DNA of 64,000 nucleotides from Melioribacteraceae bacterium (GTDB taxonomy: Bacteria; Bacteroidota; Ignavibacteria; Ignavibacteriales; Melioribacteraceae): the NCBI GenBank assembly GCA_030584085.1, contig CP129490.1, forward strand, positions 1,211,511-1,275,510, given 5' to 3'. Within the stretch, counting starts at the first letter, position 1. Every line of letters starts with the position of its first letter. Shown piece after piece: positions 1,741 through 9,405 of the stretch. The position numbers and the translations under genes were made by a program. The notes below the pieces were generated by a model. The model did no database searches and had not been told where the DNA came from. It was given only the letters and a program-made list of their open reading frames with translations.

Positions 1741-1849
1741 ACTTAGCCATTTTTGAATTAATTCGCAAAAGGTAAAAAGTAGTAAAATTCATTCCTTTTG
1801 CGTTTTGTTTTTTGATATGTTGAGCAGAAGATTGAGTGATAAATTTATC

Positions 1850-1923
1850 GGGGCGTAGCGTAGTCCGGTTAGCGCGCCTGCTTTGGGAGCAGGAGGCCGC
1901 AGGTTCGAATCCTGCCGCCCCGA
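1850..1923 (+). tRNA. tRNA-Pro (anticodon TGG)
   Basis: A 74-base cloverleaf. The 7-bp acceptor stem is CGGGGCG with CGCCCCG, the anticodon loop is CTTTGGGAG with anticodon TGG, and the T arm contains GGTTCGAATCC. The discriminator is A and CCA is not encoded. It is the first of five tRNA genes on the same strand. Confidence 0.97.
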
Positions 1924-1949
1924 CAACGAATTTATTTCAAAGCTTATTT

Positions 1950-2023
1950 GCGCCAGTAGCTCAATCGGATAGAGCAACAGCCTTCTAAGCTGTAGGTTAG
2001 TGGTTCGAGTCCACTCTGGCGTA
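1950..2023 (+). tRNA. tRNA-Arg (anticodon TCT)
   Basis: The acceptor stem GCGCCAG pairs with CTGGCGT (one G-T wobble). The anticodon arm is ACAGC-CTTCTAA-GCTGT, giving TCT, and the T loop is GTTCGAGTC. CCA is not encoded. It lies 26 bases after tRNA-Pro, so the two are probably co-transcribed. Confidence 0.96.
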
Positions 2024-2079
2024 CTTAGGATATGTTAAATCCTAACAAATAAGTTTAGTATTTAGGATTTGATTTACAT

Positions 2080-2154
2080 GGTGGGCGTAGCTCAGTTGGT
2101 TAGAGCGTCTGGTTGTGGCCCAGAAGGTCGTGGGTTCAATTCCCATCGCTCACC
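2080..2154 (+). tRNA. tRNA-His (anticodon GTG)
   Basis: The acceptor stem GTGGGCG pairs with CGCTCAC. An extra G at 2080 faces the C discriminator at 2154, the usual G-1:C73 identity pair of tRNA-His. The anticodon loop TTGTGGC gives GTG. The T loop is GGTTCAATTCC. Confidence 0.96.
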
Positions 2155-2209
2155 CACAATGTATTAGTCACTTTTTCCTTTGTACTTTGAACTTTTTAAT
2201 TGTTATCCT

Positions 2210-2281
2210 GGCCCCATCGTCTAATGGTTAGGACCTCGCCCTTTCACGGCGGTAATAGGGGTTCGAATCCCCTTGGGGTCA
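2210..2281 (+). tRNA. tRNA-Glu (anticodon TTC), copy 1
   Basis: A 72-base tRNA with acceptor GGCCCCA/TGGGGTC, anticodon loop CTTTCAC (TTC) and T loop GGTTCGAATCC. It is identical base for base to the second copy 190 bases downstream and has its own terminator. Confidence 0.97.
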
Positions 2282-2289
2282 CACTTATT

Positions 2290-2318
2290 AAGAGCAGTGT
2301 AATGCTGCTCTTTTTTTT
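2290..2318 (+). terminator. Rho-independent terminator after tRNA-Glu copy 1
   Basis: AAGAGCAG and CTGCTCTT form an 8-bp stem around a 7-base loop, followed by a run of T. It separates the first tRNA-Glu from the second. Confidence 0.85.
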
Positions 2319-2399
2319 GTACTTTAATTTATTTTGAATTTAGTAAATGGATTCTGATACACATTTACTTTTTCCTTTGTACTTTTTACTTGTTGCTAT

Positions 2400-2471
2400 G
2401 GCCCCATCGTCTAATGGTTAGGACCTCGCCCTTTCACGGCGGTAATAGGGGTTCGAATCCCCTTGGGGTCA
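2400..2471 (+). tRNA. tRNA-Glu (anticodon TTC), copy 2
   Basis: Identical over all 72 bases to the copy at 2210-2281. The 5' flank also repeats CTTTTTCCTTTGTACTTT, seen before both copies, which points to a local tandem duplication of gene plus leader. Confidence 0.97.
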
Positions 2472-2477
2472 CAAACT

Positions 2478-2549: not shown

Positions 2550-3356
2550 ATGAAAAATCATACGGACTACCCAATATCATTTGCAGGACACTCAGAATAC
2601 AAAACTGATAGGACAAAAATTAAAAGTAGTTTTTTAGGCAGAAGATTATTCTATCCAAGAATGATAAGAATCGTTGCCGAAAGTAATCTCTTCACAAAAA
2701 GGAATCTTTATAACAGATATAACTGGGTAGCTTCTTCACTCTATACAATTCGTGCGATGGAAAAAGCCGGACTTGATATTCATGTTGAAGGAATTGATAA
2801 CTTAAGTAAATTTGAAGGCCCGGCTGTTTTTGTCGGGAATCACATGAGTACTTTGGAAACACTTGCACTTCCAACTTTTATTCAACCAATTAAGTCGGTT
2901 GTATATGTAATAAAAGAAGAGTTAGCACGTTATCCATTGTTTGGGGCTGTAGCTGCAGCCAGGCATCCAATTTTAGTCGGAAGGGAAAATCCACGTGAAG
3001 ATTTACAAATTGTATTAAATGAAGGTTCTGCAAGATTACAAGATGATCGATCAGTCATAATTTTTCCGCAAAAAACACGCAGTGCTTTTTTTGATGCTAG
3101 TTCTTTCAACTCACTTGGTATAAAATTGGCAAAGAGAAATGATGTATATGTGGTTCCGCTCGCACTTTTAACCGATGCATGGGAAAACGGCAAAATAGTT
3201 AAAGAATTCGGCAAGCTTGATACATCAAAATCTGTTCACTTTGCATTTGGTGAACCATTTAAAGTTGAGACAAACGGGACAAAAGAAAACCAAACTGTAA
3301 TAGAATTTATTCAATCCAAATTAAAAGAATGGGGAAGACCTGAATATGTAATGTAA
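2550..3356 (+). CDS. PlsC-like 1-acylglycerol-3-phosphate acyltransferase family protein (variant motifs)
   Basis: A 268-residue lysophospholipid acyltransferase-like protein, expected to transfer an acyl chain at the inner face of the membrane. The catalytic block reads VGNHMSTLET: His98 is present, but the usual HX4D acid is Glu103. The second hallmark block, normally FPEGTR, reads FPQKTRS (172-178), so the Glu-Gly pair is replaced by Gln-Lys. The remaining length and block spacing fit the PlsC family. The start is the ATG at 2550; an ATG at 2540 is in another frame, and no clear Shine-Dalgarno sequence is visible. Because two signature positions are changed, either the substrate differs or the fold is used in another acyl transfer. 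It stands alone between the tRNA cluster and the TonB receptor. Confidence 0.75.
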   Translation: MKNHTDYPISFAGHSEYKTDRTKIKSSFLGRRLFYPRMIRIVAESNLFTKRNLYNRYNWVASSLYTIRAMEKAGLDIHVEGIDNLSKFEGPAVFVGNHMSTLETLALPTFIQPIKSVVYVIKEELARYPLFGAVAAARHPILVGRENPREDLQIVLNEGSARLQDDRSVIIFPQKTRSAFFDASSFNSLGIKLAKRNDVYVVPLALLTDAWENGKIVKEFGKLDTSKSVHFAFGEPFKVETNGTKENQTVIEFIQSKLKEWGRPEYVM

Positions 3357-3470
3357 CAATTCCCATTTTTCTCACTCCTTCCACATAAAATTGTCTAATG
3401 GCTGAATTGTCGCATTGTTTTTATCTATATAGCAATCAGACTATGTAACACTTCAACCATTCTCCTTTTC

Positions 3471-3509
3471 TTAACAATTCCTTAACACTCCGTTAATCAC
3501 CAGTTAACA
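3471..3509 (+). promoter_or_regulatory. Pho-box-like array of four 11-bp direct repeats
   Basis: TTAACA at 3471, TTAACA at 3482, TTAATC at 3493 and TTAACA at 3504 begin exactly 11 bases apart, on one face of the helix. PhoB/PhoP-type regulators bind such 11-bp direct repeats (TTAACA-like in Bacillus, TTAACC-like in cyanobacteria). The last repeat lies 17 bases before TATCGT (3527-3532), so it could replace the -35 box of a promoter for the TonB receptor gene at 3566. Phosphate control is inferred. Confidence 0.6.
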
Positions 3510-3565
3510 TTCGATCCTTAGGTTCGTATCGTAAGTTTTAAACCACAATAAAGAGAGAGAAAAAA

Positions 3566-6481
3566 ATGTATTACCAAACCAAACTAAAATTTGGCGGAGC
3601 TGTATTGCGTACTCTAATTAACCTATTGATCTTAATTTCTATATCTACTGCTGCATTTGCTCAGTCAGGGAAAATCTCCGGGAAAATAGTTGATGCAGAA
3701 AGCGGCGATGCAGTTATTGGATGTAATGTTATTGTAGAAGGTACATCTATTGGGGCAGCCGCCGACATAGATGGTATTTATACTATTCCGAATGTGCCGG
3801 TAGGAAATTATAATCTTGTTTTTACTTCGGTCGGATATTCAAAAAAGACCGTAACAAATGTAGAAGTGAAAGCAAGCCAACTAACGGTTATCGACATAGT
3901 ATTGCCGATTGAAAGTTTTGAAACCGACGAAGTAATAATTACAGCAGAAGCTGCGAAGAATACTGAAGCTGGTTTGTTGGTCAATAGACAAAAATCAAAT
4001 GTAGTTAGTGATGCAATCAGTTCAGAACAGTTCAGTCGTTCAGGTGCAAGTAGTGCGGCTGACGCTGTTAAGCAAGTTGTTGGTGCTTCGATCGTTGACG
4101 GAAAATATGTTTTTGTGAGAGGCTTAGGTGATCGTTATAGTTCTACTCAATTAAACGGTGCCGAACTTCCAAGTTCAGACCCAAATAGAAAAGCATTCCA
4201 AATGGATTTACTGCCGACCAATCTGTTAGATAATATTGTTACAATAAAAACATTTACTCCCGACAAACCCGGAAACTTCAGCGGTGGAATTGTCGATATA
4301 GGTACTAAAAATTTCCCAAAGCAATTCACACTCAAGGTTTCGACTTCATCTTCATATAATTCATACGCTACTTTTAATGACAACAATATAGATTACACGG
4401 GTGTTAAAGGTAATTTTTTTGGATTTGATGACGGAACCCGCAATCTTCCAAGTTTCTTAAGCGACCCAAATTTAGTTTTACCCGTTGTGCAACAGGCAAG
4501 ATTTGATGGTGAGTTGGCAGCAAAACTCGATAATGCGAGCAGAGCATTTAATAATGTTATGGATTTCTCTAGAGGAACTGTTCCGCTTAGTAATAACTTT
4601 GCTATTTCTGTCGGTGAAGAGATTGCAACCGGGATTGAGTCTTCATTCGGTTATTTAGGTAGTGTAACATATTCACGTGATCATAGTTTTTATGATGACG
4701 GTTCAATCGGACGATACATATTAACCGGTCAAGGTGAGAATCAACTAACACCAAACTTATTACTTGATGATACTCGATCAACAGCAGAATCAAATTTAGG
4801 TGGCTTGGCAAATCTTTCCTATAAATTTTCAAATTATCATCAAATACATACAAACTTGTTTTATACCAAAAGTGGTACTTCCGAAACACGTTTTATGGAA
4901 GGTGGATGGCCGCAAGAATTTGGCTCGGGCGCTGATGCTCCAATATATTTCAATAGAGTTCTTTCATATACTGAAAGAGATATTCGTTCGTTGCAATTCA
5001 GTGGTGAGCACTTTTTCGAATCTATTTTAGGACTAGGATTCGATTGGAACGTTTCACTATCAAAAACCACTCAAGATGAACCTGATAGAAGACTTATAAC
5101 ATCAGCCGAACAAAAAATTAATGATCAAGTAAATCATATTATAACCGGTTCCGGTTTTGACAGCCCTTCAAGGTATTTTAGAAACTTAGAAGATAACAGC
5201 AATACATATAGTTTTAACATCAAACTTCCGTTCAAACAATGGGATGGTAAGAAAGCGGAATTTAAAGTTGGTGCATTCTATCAAGAAACCGATCGCAGTT
5301 TTAACGAAAGAATTTTTACATATAATATCGACAATAGATTGTTTAATAAACTCGATGGAAACATTACCGAAATATTCTCACCTCAATATATGGGTATTAC
5401 TTCAATTGATACAATGAGCAACGGAAATCTTAGATATAATTTTGGGAATACTATTTCCGACAACACTCGTTTAAGAAACCAATACAACGGTGATCAAAAA
5501 GTTACAGCTATTTACGGAATGATTGACATCCCGATTTTTGCTTCTCTTAATTTAGTTACGGGTGTGCGATATGAGACAACAGAACTCTCTCTACTTAGTG
5601 CAGACCCGACTATTAATGAAGGCAGGATTGATGAAGCTGATTTACTACCATCTCTTAATATAATTTATCGGCTAAACGATGAAATGAATTTTAGAGCAGC
5701 ATATACTAAAACTTTAGCGCGACCAACATTTAGAGAGATAGCTCCATTTTCCACTAAAGAATTTGTTAATGACGTTGAACTACAAGGTAACCCGAATCTA
5801 AAAAGAAATTTAATCACAAATTATGACATTAGATGGGAATGGTTCATAAATCCCGGTGAAATATTTGCTATTAGTGGGTTCTACAAAGAAATGGAAAATC
5901 CGATAGAATTAGCATTTGCTGAAGGCTCGAACAGATCAAATCCAATTATAAATTACGTGAACGTTCCGAAGTCAACATTATTAGGTGCAGAATTTGAAGC
6001 AAGAGTTGGTTTAAGATACATATCTGATTTATTCTCAAACTTTTTCTTCAGTGGTAATCTGTCATTAGTTGAATCTACAGTTGATATTGCAGGGGCTGAG
6101 CTTCAACAAAGACTTGGGATTGACTCAACTGCAAGCCGAGAACGTCAATTACAAGGACAGTCACCATTCATTCTTAATCTAGGTATTAATTATATCAATT
6201 ACGATTTTGGTACATCCGTATCGCTCGATTACAATGTTTTCGGAGAAAGACTTTCCAAAGTATCGGCAAATATTACTCCTGATGTTTTCGAACAACCTGT
6301 ATCAAGACTTAACCTCAACATATCACAAAAAATTATTGACAACTTCACTTTAAAATTTGCTGTTAAGAATATACTTAACTCCAGCTATAAAGAAGTTTAC
6401 AAATACAACGGTCAAGAATACATATATCGTGAATACACAAATGGAATTAATTATTCAGTAGGTATTAGTTATGAACTATAA
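3566..6481 (+). CDS. TonB-dependent outer-membrane receptor with N-terminal carboxypeptidase-regulatory-like domain
   Basis: A 971-residue outer-membrane beta-barrel receptor. A signal peptide (about 1-33, ending STAAFAQ) is followed by a CarboxypepD_reg-like domain (about 36-115, KISGKIVDAESGDAVIG). The plug comes next (about 140-260, with QVVGASIVDGKYVFVRGLGD), then a long barrel with many alternating strands and an aromatic C-terminus (GINYSVGISYEL). Such receptors import large ligands using TonB energy; the ligand cannot be read from the sequence. The start follows AGAGAGAG. A secreted protein gene begins 32 bases downstream and is probably co-transcribed. The upstream 11-bp repeat array suggests control by a PhoB-type regulator, so a role in phosphorus acquisition is an attractive inference. 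Confidence 0.9.
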   Translation: MYYQTKLKFGGAVLRTLINLLILISISTAAFAQSGKISGKIVDAESGDAVIGCNVIVEGTSIGAAADIDGIYTIPNVPVGNYNLVFTSVGYSKKTVTNVEVKASQLTVIDIVLPIESFETDEVIITAEAAKNTEAGLLVNRQKSNVVSDAISSEQFSRSGASSAADAVKQVVGASIVDGKYVFVRGLGDRYSSTQLNGAELPSSDPNRKAFQMDLLPTNLLDNIVTIKTFTPDKPGNFSGGIVDIGTKNFPKQFTLKVSTSSSYNSYATFNDNNIDYTGVKGNFFGFDDGTRNLPSFLSDPNLVLPVVQQARFDGELAAKLDNASRAFNNVMDFSRGTVPLSNNFAISVGEEIATGIESSFGYLGSVTYSRDHSFYDDGSIGRYILTGQGENQLTPNLLLDDTRSTAESNLGGLANLSYKFSNYHQIHTNLFYTKSGTSETRFMEGGWPQEFGSGADAPIYFNRVLSYTERDIRSLQFSGEHFFESILGLGFDWNVSLSKTTQDEPDRRLITSAEQKINDQVNHIITGSGFDSPSRYFRNLEDNSNTYSFNIKLPFKQWDGKKAEFKVGAFYQETDRSFNERIFTYNIDNRLFNKLDGNITEIFSPQYMGITSIDTMSNGNLRYNFGNTISDNTRLRNQYNGDQKVTAIYGMIDIPIFASLNLVTGVRYETTELSLLSADPTINEGRIDEADLLPSLNIIYRLNDEMNFRAAYTKTLARPTFREIAPFSTKEFVNDVELQGNPNLKRNLITNYDIRWEWFINPGEIFAISGFYKEMENPIELAFAEGSNRSNPIINYVNVPKSTLLGAEFEARVGLRYISDLFSNFFFSGNLSLVESTVDIAGAELQQRLGIDSTASRERQLQGQSPFILNLGINYINYDFGTSVSLDYNVFGERLSKVSANITPDVFEQPVSRLNLNISQKIIDNFTLKFAVKNILNSSYKEVYKYNGQEYIYREYTNGINYSVGISYEL

Positions 6482-6513: not shown

Positions 6514-8151
6514 ATGCTTAAAAAACTTTCCATCTTTATAATGTTGCTTTTTGCCACTAGATCATTTGCTCAAGTAGTAGTATCGAATGATATAGTAGGT
6601 AATGTAACCTGGACATCGAATAATGAATATATATTAGACGGATTAATATTTGTAGATTCATTATCTACATTAACAATTGAAGCCGGGACTGTAATAAAAG
6701 GAAGATTACAATCAAACATAACAACCGGCGATGGAGCCAGTGCATTGGTTGTAAGACGCGGCGCTCAAATATTTGCAGAAGGTACACCTGAAAGTCCGAT
6801 CATATTCACAAGTGAATTGGATGACGTAACAGTACCTGATGATTTACTACTTACAGATAGAGGATTGTGGGGAGGATTGATAGTATTAGGTGAAGCAACA
6901 ACAAACCAACCAACAACCCAAAATCAAATAGAAGGAATTCCGGGAGAATTTAACGCAAGATACGGTGGAAATGATGATAGCGATAACTCTGGAGTATTAA
7001 GATATGTATCAATCCGTCACGGAGGATTTTCAATCAGTGGAGTTCCCGGGGATGAAATAAACGGATTAACGATGGGCGCAGTAGGAAGCGGCACAACGAT
7101 AGAATATATAGAAGTAATAGCAAACTTTGATGACGGCTATGAATGGTTTGGCGGAACAGTAAATACAAGATACTTAGCGGCAATCATGTGCGGGGATGAT
7201 GCATTTGATTATGATCAAGGCTGGAGAGGCAAGAACCAGTTTTGGTTTGCACTTCAAGGTGAAGATGAAGCCGGAAGAGGAGGAGAACACGACGGTGGGG
7301 ATGACTGTGAAACATGTGAGCCATATGCAATCCCGATGATATCAAATGCAACATACATTGGTTCTGGTGCAAGTTCAGTTGGAGTAGGTGGAGATGGAAA
7401 CGATAGAGCAATTTATTTTAGAGATAATGCAGGTGGAAAATATTACAATAGTATATTCACCGATTATGTTGGCGTAGGTTTGAAGATAGAAGATATAGAT
7501 GGACAAGACAGTAGAACACAGATGGAAAACGATAATTTAGTATTATCAAATAATATTTGGTTTGGTTTTGGAGCAGGTAATGATTTATTAACTATTGCAT
7601 CGGGAGATCAATGGGCGGCAGATCATTTAGCTGCAAACGGAAATCAAATAGTTGATCCACAATTAAGAGGAATAAGCAGAACAACTGATCGAGGATTAGA
7701 TCCTAGACCACAATTAAATTCAACTCCAGTCGAATTAGAAGATCAATTTTTCACAAATGTGAATTATCACGGTGCATTTGATCCTGATAATGGTTTGTGG
7801 ACTGAGGGATGGACAGCAGCATCTTCCTATGGAATCACTACAACAACAGTTGTTGGGGTAGAAACCGAATACGAAAGTTCAATCCCAAACAATTTTGAAC
7901 TATCACAAAACTATCCGAATCCATTTAACCCAACGACTAAAATTCAGTTTTCTTTACCACAAGCTGATAATATAAAGTTAAGAGTTTACAACGTGCTGGG
8001 TCAGCAAGTTGCTGAATTGATTAATGACTTCAAGGCTGCAGGAACTTATACGGTTGACTGGAATGCTGAGAATTTATCATCCGGTATGTATATATATAGA
8101 CTAGAAGCCGGTGCAAATATCATTACAAAGAAAATGACTTTATTAAAATAA
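6514..8151 (+). CDS. Secreted protein with type A T9SS sorting domain, beta-helix-like
   Basis: A 545-residue exported protein of unknown function. The signal peptide is MLKKLSIFIMLLFATRSFAQ. The body opens with repeated short beta motifs (LDGLIFVDSLSTLTIEAGTV) and includes LRYVSIRHGG and TIEYIEVIANFDDGYEWFGG, the look of a right-handed parallel beta-helix. Residues from about 460 form the type A sorting domain (NFELSQNYPNPFNPTTKIQF, ending KKMTLLK), which directs export by the type IX system and cleavage or anchoring at the cell surface. It begins 32 bases after the TonB receptor with the leader AAAGGAGAAGTA, so the two likely act together as a surface binding and uptake pair. No catalytic motif is recognisable. 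Confidence 0.8.
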   Translation: MLKKLSIFIMLLFATRSFAQVVVSNDIVGNVTWTSNNEYILDGLIFVDSLSTLTIEAGTVIKGRLQSNITTGDGASALVVRRGAQIFAEGTPESPIIFTSELDDVTVPDDLLLTDRGLWGGLIVLGEATTNQPTTQNQIEGIPGEFNARYGGNDDSDNSGVLRYVSIRHGGFSISGVPGDEINGLTMGAVGSGTTIEYIEVIANFDDGYEWFGGTVNTRYLAAIMCGDDAFDYDQGWRGKNQFWFALQGEDEAGRGGEHDGGDDCETCEPYAIPMISNATYIGSGASSVGVGGDGNDRAIYFRDNAGGKYYNSIFTDYVGVGLKIEDIDGQDSRTQMENDNLVLSNNIWFGFGAGNDLLTIASGDQWAADHLAANGNQIVDPQLRGISRTTDRGLDPRPQLNSTPVELEDQFFTNVNYHGAFDPDNGLWTEGWTAASSYGITTTTVVGVETEYESSIPNNFELSQNYPNPFNPTTKIQFSLPQADNIKLRVYNVLGQQVAELINDFKAAGTYTVDWNAENLSSGMYIYRLEAGANIITKKMTLLK

Positions 8152-8463: not shown

Positions 8464-9405
8464 ATGAAAATACTAAAACCCAAAAGGTTACAAAAAGGTG
8501 ATGTAATCGGGATTATTTCTCCCGCTTCTTCTCCTTTAGATTCTTCTTTAATCGAGAAAGGTACTAGTTATTTAGAACGCCTTGGTTATAAAGTCGAAAT
8601 TGGTAAATCTGTTGGTAAAGTGTTAGGATATTTGGCCGGCAGTGATGCTGAACGTCTTAATGATATTCATTCAATGTTCCGCAATAAAAATATTAAAGCT
8701 GTTTTTTCTTTGCGCGGAGGTTACGGCTCGGCTAGATTATTAGATAAATTAGACTATAACTTGATTCGTAAGAACAATAAAATTTTTGTAGGTTTTAGCG
8801 ATATCACGGCATTGCAATTAGCACTTTATCATAAAGCCGGAATAATTACATTTGCAGGACCAATGGTAGCGACAAATTTTTCGGCTGAAATAAATTCATT
8901 TTCTGAAGAATTTTTTTGGGATTTGATTACAAAAAATCGTAAAATAGGAAAGTTGAAAAATCCGAATGAGGAAAAATTTTTCGTGTTGAATAAGGGTAGA
9001 GGTGAGGGCAAACTTCTTGGCGGTAATTTATCAACAATCATATCAATTATGGGTTCTAAATTCTTCCCATCTTTTAGGAATTCGATTTTAATGTTAGAAG
9101 AAATAAATGAACCCCCTTACAAAATTGATCGTATGTTTAATCAACTTAGATTAGCAAATATATTTAACAGTGTAAAAGGAATAATTCTTGGAAGATTTGT
9201 TGATTGTTATGAAACTGACAAATCTAAAAATACACTCTCTTTAAACGAAATTATTGTGGACTATTTCAAAAATCTAAAAATTCCTGTAATTTACAACGTT
9301 AAACATGGGCACATTAGTGATCTTATCACTTTACCGATAGGATTAAATACAAAGTTAAATGCATCAAAAGGTTTTATTGAAATAGCAGAAACCGGAGTAT
9401 TATAA
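8464..9405 (+). CDS. LD-carboxypeptidase, peptidase family S66 (LdcA/MccF type)
   Basis: A 313-residue serine peptidase expected to remove the terminal D-Ala from tetrapeptides during murein recycling. It has the family N-terminus GDVIGIISPASSP, the substrate-loop motif SLRGGYGSAR (82-91) and the nucleophile Ser112 in VGFSDITAL. The acid lies in LEEINEPPYKIDR (about 211-223) and His283 in VKHGHISD, the Ser-Glu-His triad of the family. The length is typical. There is no signal peptide, fitting a cytoplasmic enzyme. It sits alone, with a 52-base gap to the next gene. A microcin-immunity (MccF-like) role is the alternative. Confidence 0.9.
   Translation: MKILKPKRLQKGDVIGIISPASSPLDSSLIEKGTSYLERLGYKVEIGKSVGKVLGYLAGSDAERLNDIHSMFRNKNIKAVFSLRGGYGSARLLDKLDYNLIRKNNKIFVGFSDITALQLALYHKAGIITFAGPMVATNFSAEINSFSEEFFWDLITKNRKIGKLKNPNEEKFFVLNKGRGEGKLLGGNLSTIISIMGSKFFPSFRNSILMLEEINEPPYKIDRMFNQLRLANIFNSVKGIILGRFVDCYETDKSKNTLSLNEIIVDYFKNLKIPVIYNVKHGHISDLITLPIGLNTKLNASKGFIEIAETGVL

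Follow-up and report, generated by a model that had tools for sequence, protein, structure and literature searches.

The window, by which we mean the whole stretch of 64,000 nucleotides analysed here, carries near its start a gene for a TonB-dependent receptor and, after an intergenic gap of 32 bases, a gene for a partner protein with a type IX secretion (T9SS) sorting domain. An array of four direct repeats ends 56 bases before the receptor start codon. The features of the locus are the following:

2550..3356, + strand: acyltransferase gene (PF01553), upstream of the box
3471..3509, + strand: putative PHO-type box, direct repeats TTAACA, TTAACA, TTAATC and TTAACA in 11-bp steps (sequence reading and searches)
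3519..3526, + strand: probable -10 element TAGGTTCG, of the TAnnTTTG type, at a distance from the array that 37 of 48 promoters share, the window's among them
3566..6481, + strand: TonB-dependent receptor, 971 aa, with a CarboxypepD_reg-like domain, plug and barrel (Pfam PF13715, PF07715, PF00593)
6514..8151, + strand: partner, 545 aa, a beta-helix with a T9SS sorting domain at residues 467-541 (PF18962; AlphaFold2 model)

The receptor also matched TIGR01782, below the cut-off of that model, and sequence searches against solved structures gave no relative of the receptor or of the partner.

Read from position 3470, the letters of the array are CTTAACAATTC CTTAACACTCC GTTAATCACCA GTTAACATTCG, and the repeat starts given in the first-pass annotation (3471, 3482, 3493 and 3504) are exact. 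The exact four-repeat pattern occurs once in the window and was absent from 100 dinucleotide shuffles. Across the 3,742,376-base genome, the pattern TTAAY-N6 taken four times has a single match without mismatches, the window array itself, and two further matches with one mismatch. With up to three mismatches the genome-wide counts were 70 for the real pattern and 93 for the reversed one; with counts so similar only near-perfect matches are informative, and the array-like matches found in the genome at three mismatches were discarded as noise. Pairs of the form TTAACA-N5-TTAACA, at up to two mismatches, were not above chance (18 found, 20.2 expected), and the exceptional feature is the run of four, not single pairs.

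We searched 77 genomes of the genus, family and order, the window's included, and found a receptor match at E 1e-30 or better in 56 of them. The 46 matches of at least 404 bits were taken as receptor orthologues and the 46 matches of at most 152 bits as a control, with one match of 214 bits in neither group. Upstream regions were read at 30 loci of the 46 strong matches, one of them the window's, and in 27 of these 30, again including the window's, the best four-repeat score exceeded the background maximum (3.2, the highest of 127,722 window positions). Three regions had no clear array at the expected place: that of L047 is degenerate, L050 has none, and L054 (genome G069) has a strict array 825 bp upstream, before another gene of the same strand. 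Within 300 bp upstream of the 30 receptors there were 165 pairs of TTAAY words 5-40 bp apart, and 143 of them lay at distances of 11 (64 pairs), 22 (50 pairs) or 33 bp (29 pairs); six units in a row occur in several relatives. Between species the repeats are kept and the spacers differ, and such constancy of repeats among varying spacers is the mark of a binding site.

A stricter pattern, three repeats with at most one mismatch, gave 116 raw matches in the 77 genomes against 34 for the reversed pattern, and 55 genomes had at least one. The window's own genome had no match to it because its third repeat is GTTAATC, a result that we count against a PHO reading. Merging the matches left 91 arrays. 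Of these, 26 stand upstream of a receptor orthologue at no more than 1.2 kb, 20 lie on the strand of a PstS gene and at most 3.5 kb ahead of it (the best 114 matches forming the PstS set, and the 68 matches over the cut-off the PhoU set), 5 are nearby and 40 elsewhere. Random placement predicts 0.009 arrays before the receptors and 0.06 before PstS. Among the zero-mismatch arrays, 15 of 20 stand before a receptor orthologue or PstS, and the 40 arrays away from the reference genes are about as many as the reversed control predicts, though some of them are meaningful, as set out below. Seen from the receptors, 26 of the 46 strong matches had a strict array within 1.2 kb upstream and 20 had none at this strictness, and none of the 46 weaker control matches had one within 2.5 kb upstream. 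Seen from the pst side, only 18 of the best 114 PstS genes had a strict array within 3.5 kb, which also counts against the PHO reading.

The array was found before other genes as well. In genome G043 it precedes a PiT gene and the gene for an acyltransferase with an Acetyltransf_5 domain, and in G002 an open reading frame (ORF) 54% identical to that acyltransferase. It also stands before a pair of glycosyltransferase-21 and metallophosphoesterase genes in G043 (L145:741-2917) and in G020 (L144). We take this pair to be PlcP/Agt-like and the acyltransferase to be OlsF-like, and both gene sets probably belong to phosphorus-free lipid synthesis, as expected of a phosphate-starvation regulon.

The last repeat had been proposed to occupy the -35 position of a possible promoter. 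It does lie 17 bp before a TATCGT in a sigma-70 scan, but the scan was near background for the region (2 sites, 1.3 in shuffles) and the sigma-70 reading of the promoter was set aside. The element TAGGTTCG is of the TAnnTTTG type, which we assume to be the -10 type of Bacteroidota, and begins after 9 bases from the last repeat, a distance that brings this repeat nearer to the -10 element than a classical -35 would be. To compare offsets we took 20 pst-side regions, drawn from 18 genomes, and the 30 regions upstream of receptors, allowing six offsets, taking the best-scoring register and counting TAnnTTTG at 4 or more of its 6 letters; the register could be set in 48 of these 50. In 37 of these 48 promoters, the window's included, TAnnTTTG starts five bases past the last 11-bp unit; on the pst side 13 of 20 regions show this, and among the receptor promoters 24 of 28. 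The seven pst-side regions without this common offset count against the PHO reading.

A profile was built from 28 of these 37 common-offset promoters, none of them of the window's genus, and run over the whole of the window's genome (G000); left out were three promoters of that genus and the weak or near-duplicate G041, G073, L043, L049, L052 and L058. The window array was the top match (47.3 bits, E 6.2e-12). In G001 and G002 the receptor array, whose spacers differ from those of the window, was among the two best profile matches, with 40.2 bits in each genome. The profile search of G077, a genome of the same species with 80% completeness, listed no receptor array, and this we count against the PHO reading.

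The second match in the window's genome (37.0 bits, E 1e-8, G000:C1:323605-323661) lies before an ORF of 41 aa for a membrane protein, at about 323,690. This array and its ORF are kept in G077 (C89:3643), with altered spacers; the second strong array of G001 and that of G002 lie before a different gene, which in G002 is a secreted-looking ORF of 115 aa. The third match was a partial one of 19 bases (E 0.165). The fourth, a weak three-repeat array before a PiT phosphate permease (E 0.225), and the fifth, before a cluster with CTP transferase and NeuB (E 0.322), are not significant alone. The array recurs before the latter aminosugar cluster in G025 and before its first gene in G001 and G002, where only that first gene was seen. 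In the window's genome (G000:C1:2878689; L136:4766-12765) the cluster consists of a weak epimerase match, the CTP transferase, an aminotransferase and NeuB; judged from these genes, it may make a glycan that the cell surface requires during phosphate stress.

The same genome has a phoB-phoR pair at 1066221, a regulator with an adjoining kinase, both of them open frames with their domains. With the regulator of G015 it shares 58% identity, the next candidate reaching 43%, and the regulator has 57 matches in its own genome. It stands one gene after what is presumably, from our reading of the protein, a deoxyxylulose-synthase-like gene, and such a gene directly precedes phoB in G015. Among the other phosphate genes, PhoU was not found in G000, G001 or G002, and PstA, sought in G000, gave one match of 39 positions with 21 bits against a cut-off of 193, so that none was over the cut-off; the usual signal route to PhoR is missing here because PhoU and PstA went undetected, and this too counts against the PHO reading. 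A PstS-like gene lies behind an M28 peptidase gene (L135:1939-4413; about 3317940-3320410 of the genome), with no transporter genes adjoining.

We then fetched 20 receptor neighbourhoods of relatives. The partner directly follows the receptor in 19 of them, and in the other (G007) the contig ends there. In seven of the 20 the pair has as cluster neighbours either pst genes and phoU, or phoB or phoBR. In G008 it is followed by one gene, and in G010 by two, before pstS, pstC, pstA and pstB, with phoU just past; in G018 the order is pstSCAB-phoU-receptor-partner; in G050 the pair is followed by a PstS gene, one other gene, pstC, pstA and pstB; in G036 by a PstS-like gene, phoU and a PhoB-like regulator; and the pair itself comes after phoB-phoR in G015 and after a regulator in G030. 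The receptor-adjacent regulators of G036, G015 and G030 are 60, 57 and 48% identical to the regulator at 1066221 of the window's genome. G060 has a regulator near the receptor too, but of another group, and we left it uncounted. An M28-like and PstS-like gene pair stands beside the receptor-partner pair in G003, G009, G036, G050, G053, G057 and G058, the label M28 being taken from the copy in the window's genome.

The receptor family is widespread. Among the best 80 named receptor loci, some of which are contigs of genomes already searched, a partner homologue was present in the fetched stretch in 73 and pstCAB-phoU in four (L196, L197, L232 and L261). A three-repeat score of at least 2.55, a level absent from the window background, was reached before 20 of these 80 loci, 14 of which belong to Ignavibacteria, Calditrichia or Chloroherpetonaceae, and none of the loci from Poribacteria, Verrucomicrobia and Myxococcota among the 80 reached it. 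From this distribution the operator word seems to be lineage-specific. No match to type II secretion genes was found in the 80 loci at E 1e-10 with E. coli GspD, GspE, GspF and GspG as queries.

An alignment-based AlphaFold2 model of the partner (48 sequences, mean pLDDT 87.6) predicts a long beta-helix and, after it, a distinct beta domain at the C-terminus; a single-sequence model was dropped (mean pLDDT 31). The solved folds nearest to residues 16 to 423, approximately, are alginate epimerases and lyases, polygalacturonases and phage tailspikes (Z 18.6-22.5), and the tail resembles T9SS substrate domains weakly (E 0.03-0.09). Superposition of the top Foldseek hits is poor (TM mostly 0.2-0.3), and we therefore rely on no more than the general beta-helix class. 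The family alignment has 24 invariant columns, including D206, D207, E210, D228, D232 and E258, and the module is present in two copies in all ten homologues of 900-1050 aa in the fetched neighbourhoods and in a homologue from Indioceanicola. The class IPR011050, which appears below, is presumably the pectin-lyase fold.

Several known systems resemble parts of this locus. In the E. coli sequence that we fetched, the pstS PHO box bound by PhoB is likewise made of tandem direct repeats in 11-bp steps, but its word is CTGTCAT where the window type has CTTAACA, followed by a -10 of the TAnnTTTG type. The PhoP box of Bacillus and the SphR box of cyanobacteria consist of TTAACA-like or CTTAACC-like tandem words at 11-bp spacing; these organisms belong to other phyla than the window's. 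A literature search for a printed box of the present kind found none within its scope, outside which most subscription papers lay; the passage on the Pho box in a Bacteroides fragilis PhoB study holds no motif (PMC3547664), and the term 'Pho box' is absent from a Flavobacterium johnsoniae study (PMC8115612).

The first-pass annotation had called the pair otherwise unknown, which is not quite right, since similar pairs have been described in Flavobacterium and Caulobacter. According to the F. johnsoniae study, a TonB-dependent receptor beside phoBR has a log2 fold change of 8.0 on phosphate depletion and a neighbouring lipoprotein, FII, of class IPR011050, one of 9.9; a TonB-dependent receptor also lies in the cluster of FI, the most abundant exoprotein, and the FI/FII lipoproteins are 31-36% identical to a Caulobacter low-phosphate lipoprotein (PMC8115612). 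As described there, the PUSIII and PUSIV loci likewise combine a TonB receptor with a surface protein of the beta-helix class, stand beside phoBR or with T9SS-domain proteins, and are strongly induced by phosphate depletion; FI and FII are termed lipoproteins, unlike the window partner with its T9SS tail. In Caulobacter, the literature places elpS (cc0170) and its receptor gene cc0171 adjacent to each other, upstream of type II secretion genes (PMC2996285), and includes TonB receptors and the type II system in the PhoB regulon (PMC11208175). ElpS is made on phosphate starvation; cc0171 was reported to be constitutive, with only elpS induced (PMC2996285), a point that counts against the PHO reading.

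The window has the same adjacency of receptor and extracellular partner genes as ElpS-Cc0171, but ElpS is a lipoprotein exported by the type II system and the window partner has a T9SS sorting domain. For this reason we file the window pair as one that works like ElpS-Cc0171 and is no member of that type. Indioceanicola has a homologue of the window pair ahead of its gsp genes, the gene order being the one reported from Caulobacter, and the protein in the cc0170 position, before the receptor and gsp, is 35% identical to the partner over 355 columns. By these sequences the Indioceanicola pair links the window pair to the Caulobacter family, the link running through Indioceanicola and not through the ElpS sequence. 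Phosphate utilisation systems of the SusCD/PusCD kind likewise join TonB-dependent outer-membrane transport to a surface protein, but the window partner has no SusD match and the receptor, with 48.9 bits against the TIGR04056 cut-off of 368.25, is far below that model.

Direct repeats that recur every 11 bp near a promoter, their position before the pst genes of relatives (20 of 91 arrays, 0.06 expected) and the phoB-phoR pair of the same genome are features of a PHO box. The geometry of PhoB/PhoP boxes that had been suggested is borne out by the pst operons of relatives, which this array likewise precedes, in most cases together with its downstream element. Since related bacteria carry this array in front of their phosphate-pump genes, it is very probably where PhoB, the regulator of phosphate starvation, docks in the window. 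The receptor and the surface partner encoded behind such a predicted PhoB site are then most likely a pair that scavenges phosphorus. On comparative grounds the proposed role in phosphorus acquisition holds up as well, with arrays before pst genes and with the pair clustered with pst/phoU or phoB/phoBR in 7 of 20 neighbourhoods. That the array is a PHO-type operator is in all likelihood correct, and that it is a PHO-type box which serves phosphorus acquisition is highly probable.

Taken together, the conserved array, its occurrence also in front of pst operons, the clustering of the genes and the protein domains suggest the following course of events. When phosphate is scarce, PhoB of the OmpR family, most likely the product of the gene at 1066221 beside the phoR-like kinase, would be phosphorylated and would occupy the four 11-bp half-sites, one next to the other along the same face of the helix. 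Bound PhoB would recruit RNA polymerase to the TAGGTTCG element and so switch on receptor and partner. The type IX system would then export the partner, which as a beta-helix at the cell surface may bind or process a phosphorus-bearing ligand, and the TonB-powered receptor would import phosphate, or a compound containing it, through the outer membrane. The step across the inner membrane is probably made by PstSCAB in most relatives and by the PiT transporter in the window's genus, as PhoU was not found in that genus nor PstA in the window's genome.

The alternative that survives best accepts a true PhoB site and lets the pair serve something other than phosphorus uptake during phosphate stress, such as a surface glycan, a metal or an organic nutrient. 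The folds nearest to the partner, largely polysaccharide lyases, epimerases, polygalacturonases and tailspikes, would suit it, as would the other PHO-type array before the NeuB/CTP-transferase aminosugar cluster; however, beta-helix folds say little about substrate and the pst/phoU clusters of G008, G010, G018 and G050 are hard to explain with a phosphorus-free cargo, so that we regard it as unlikely. A relic array in the genus, where Pst and PhoU would be gone, PhoB phosphate-blind and the operon constitutive or silent, agrees with phosphorus scavenging under PhoB on what the box is and would account for the failure to find PhoU in G000, G001 and G002 or a PstA over the cut-off in G000. It is distinctly improbable, given that the profile ranks the box first or second in these three genomes (47.3, 40.2 and 40.2 bits), although the boxes of G001 and G002 differ from the window's, as stated above, in their spacers, and that phoB and phoR of G000 are open with their domains. 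Many OmpR-family regulators bind direct repeats, and with 57 matches the genome has many receiver-domain proteins, so a different OmpR-type regulator could use the 11-bp repeats, with an indirect link to pst. This is very improbable when set against an array that precedes pst, receptor, PiT and probable lipid-remodelling genes, and against the PhoB-like group to which the regulator beside the receptor belongs in three genomes. Finally, TTAACA-like pairs at 11 bp are common by chance, but a chance run of four in AT-rich DNA can be dismissed on its absence from 100 shuffles, its fixed promoter offset and its conservation, which already refutes it.

If the PhoB reading is correct, a simple sequence rule emerges, CTTAACA-like words in 11-bp steps and then TAnnTTTG five bases past the last 11-bp unit, and with this rule DNA alone would suffice to recognise the phosphate regulon in uncultured Ignavibacteria and their relatives. 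Furthermore, a widespread and little-studied receptor/beta-helix pair becomes tied to phosphorus acquisition by promoter evidence that is independent of expression data. The results also point to a genus whose Pho regulon seems to do without Pst and PhoU, and where phosphate sensing by PhoR is directly testable. It is a bolder and rather doubtful proposition that the genus runs its Pho regulon without PstSCAB and PhoU, the TonB receptor being its main regulated phosphate gate; if true, PhoR must learn of phosphate by a different route, for which a small membrane protein, for example the one of 41 aa behind the second-best box, may serve.

Upstream of the box, a homologue of the acyltransferase is present in 9 of the 20 receptor neighbourhoods of relatives. 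Five consecutive tRNA genes (Pro, Arg, His, Glu and Glu; window 1849-2472) precede the acyltransferase gene, the two tRNA-Glu genes having an identical anticodon. After the operon comes an LD-carboxypeptidase (S66) gene (window 8464-9405), which has the same place in G005, G012 and G025.
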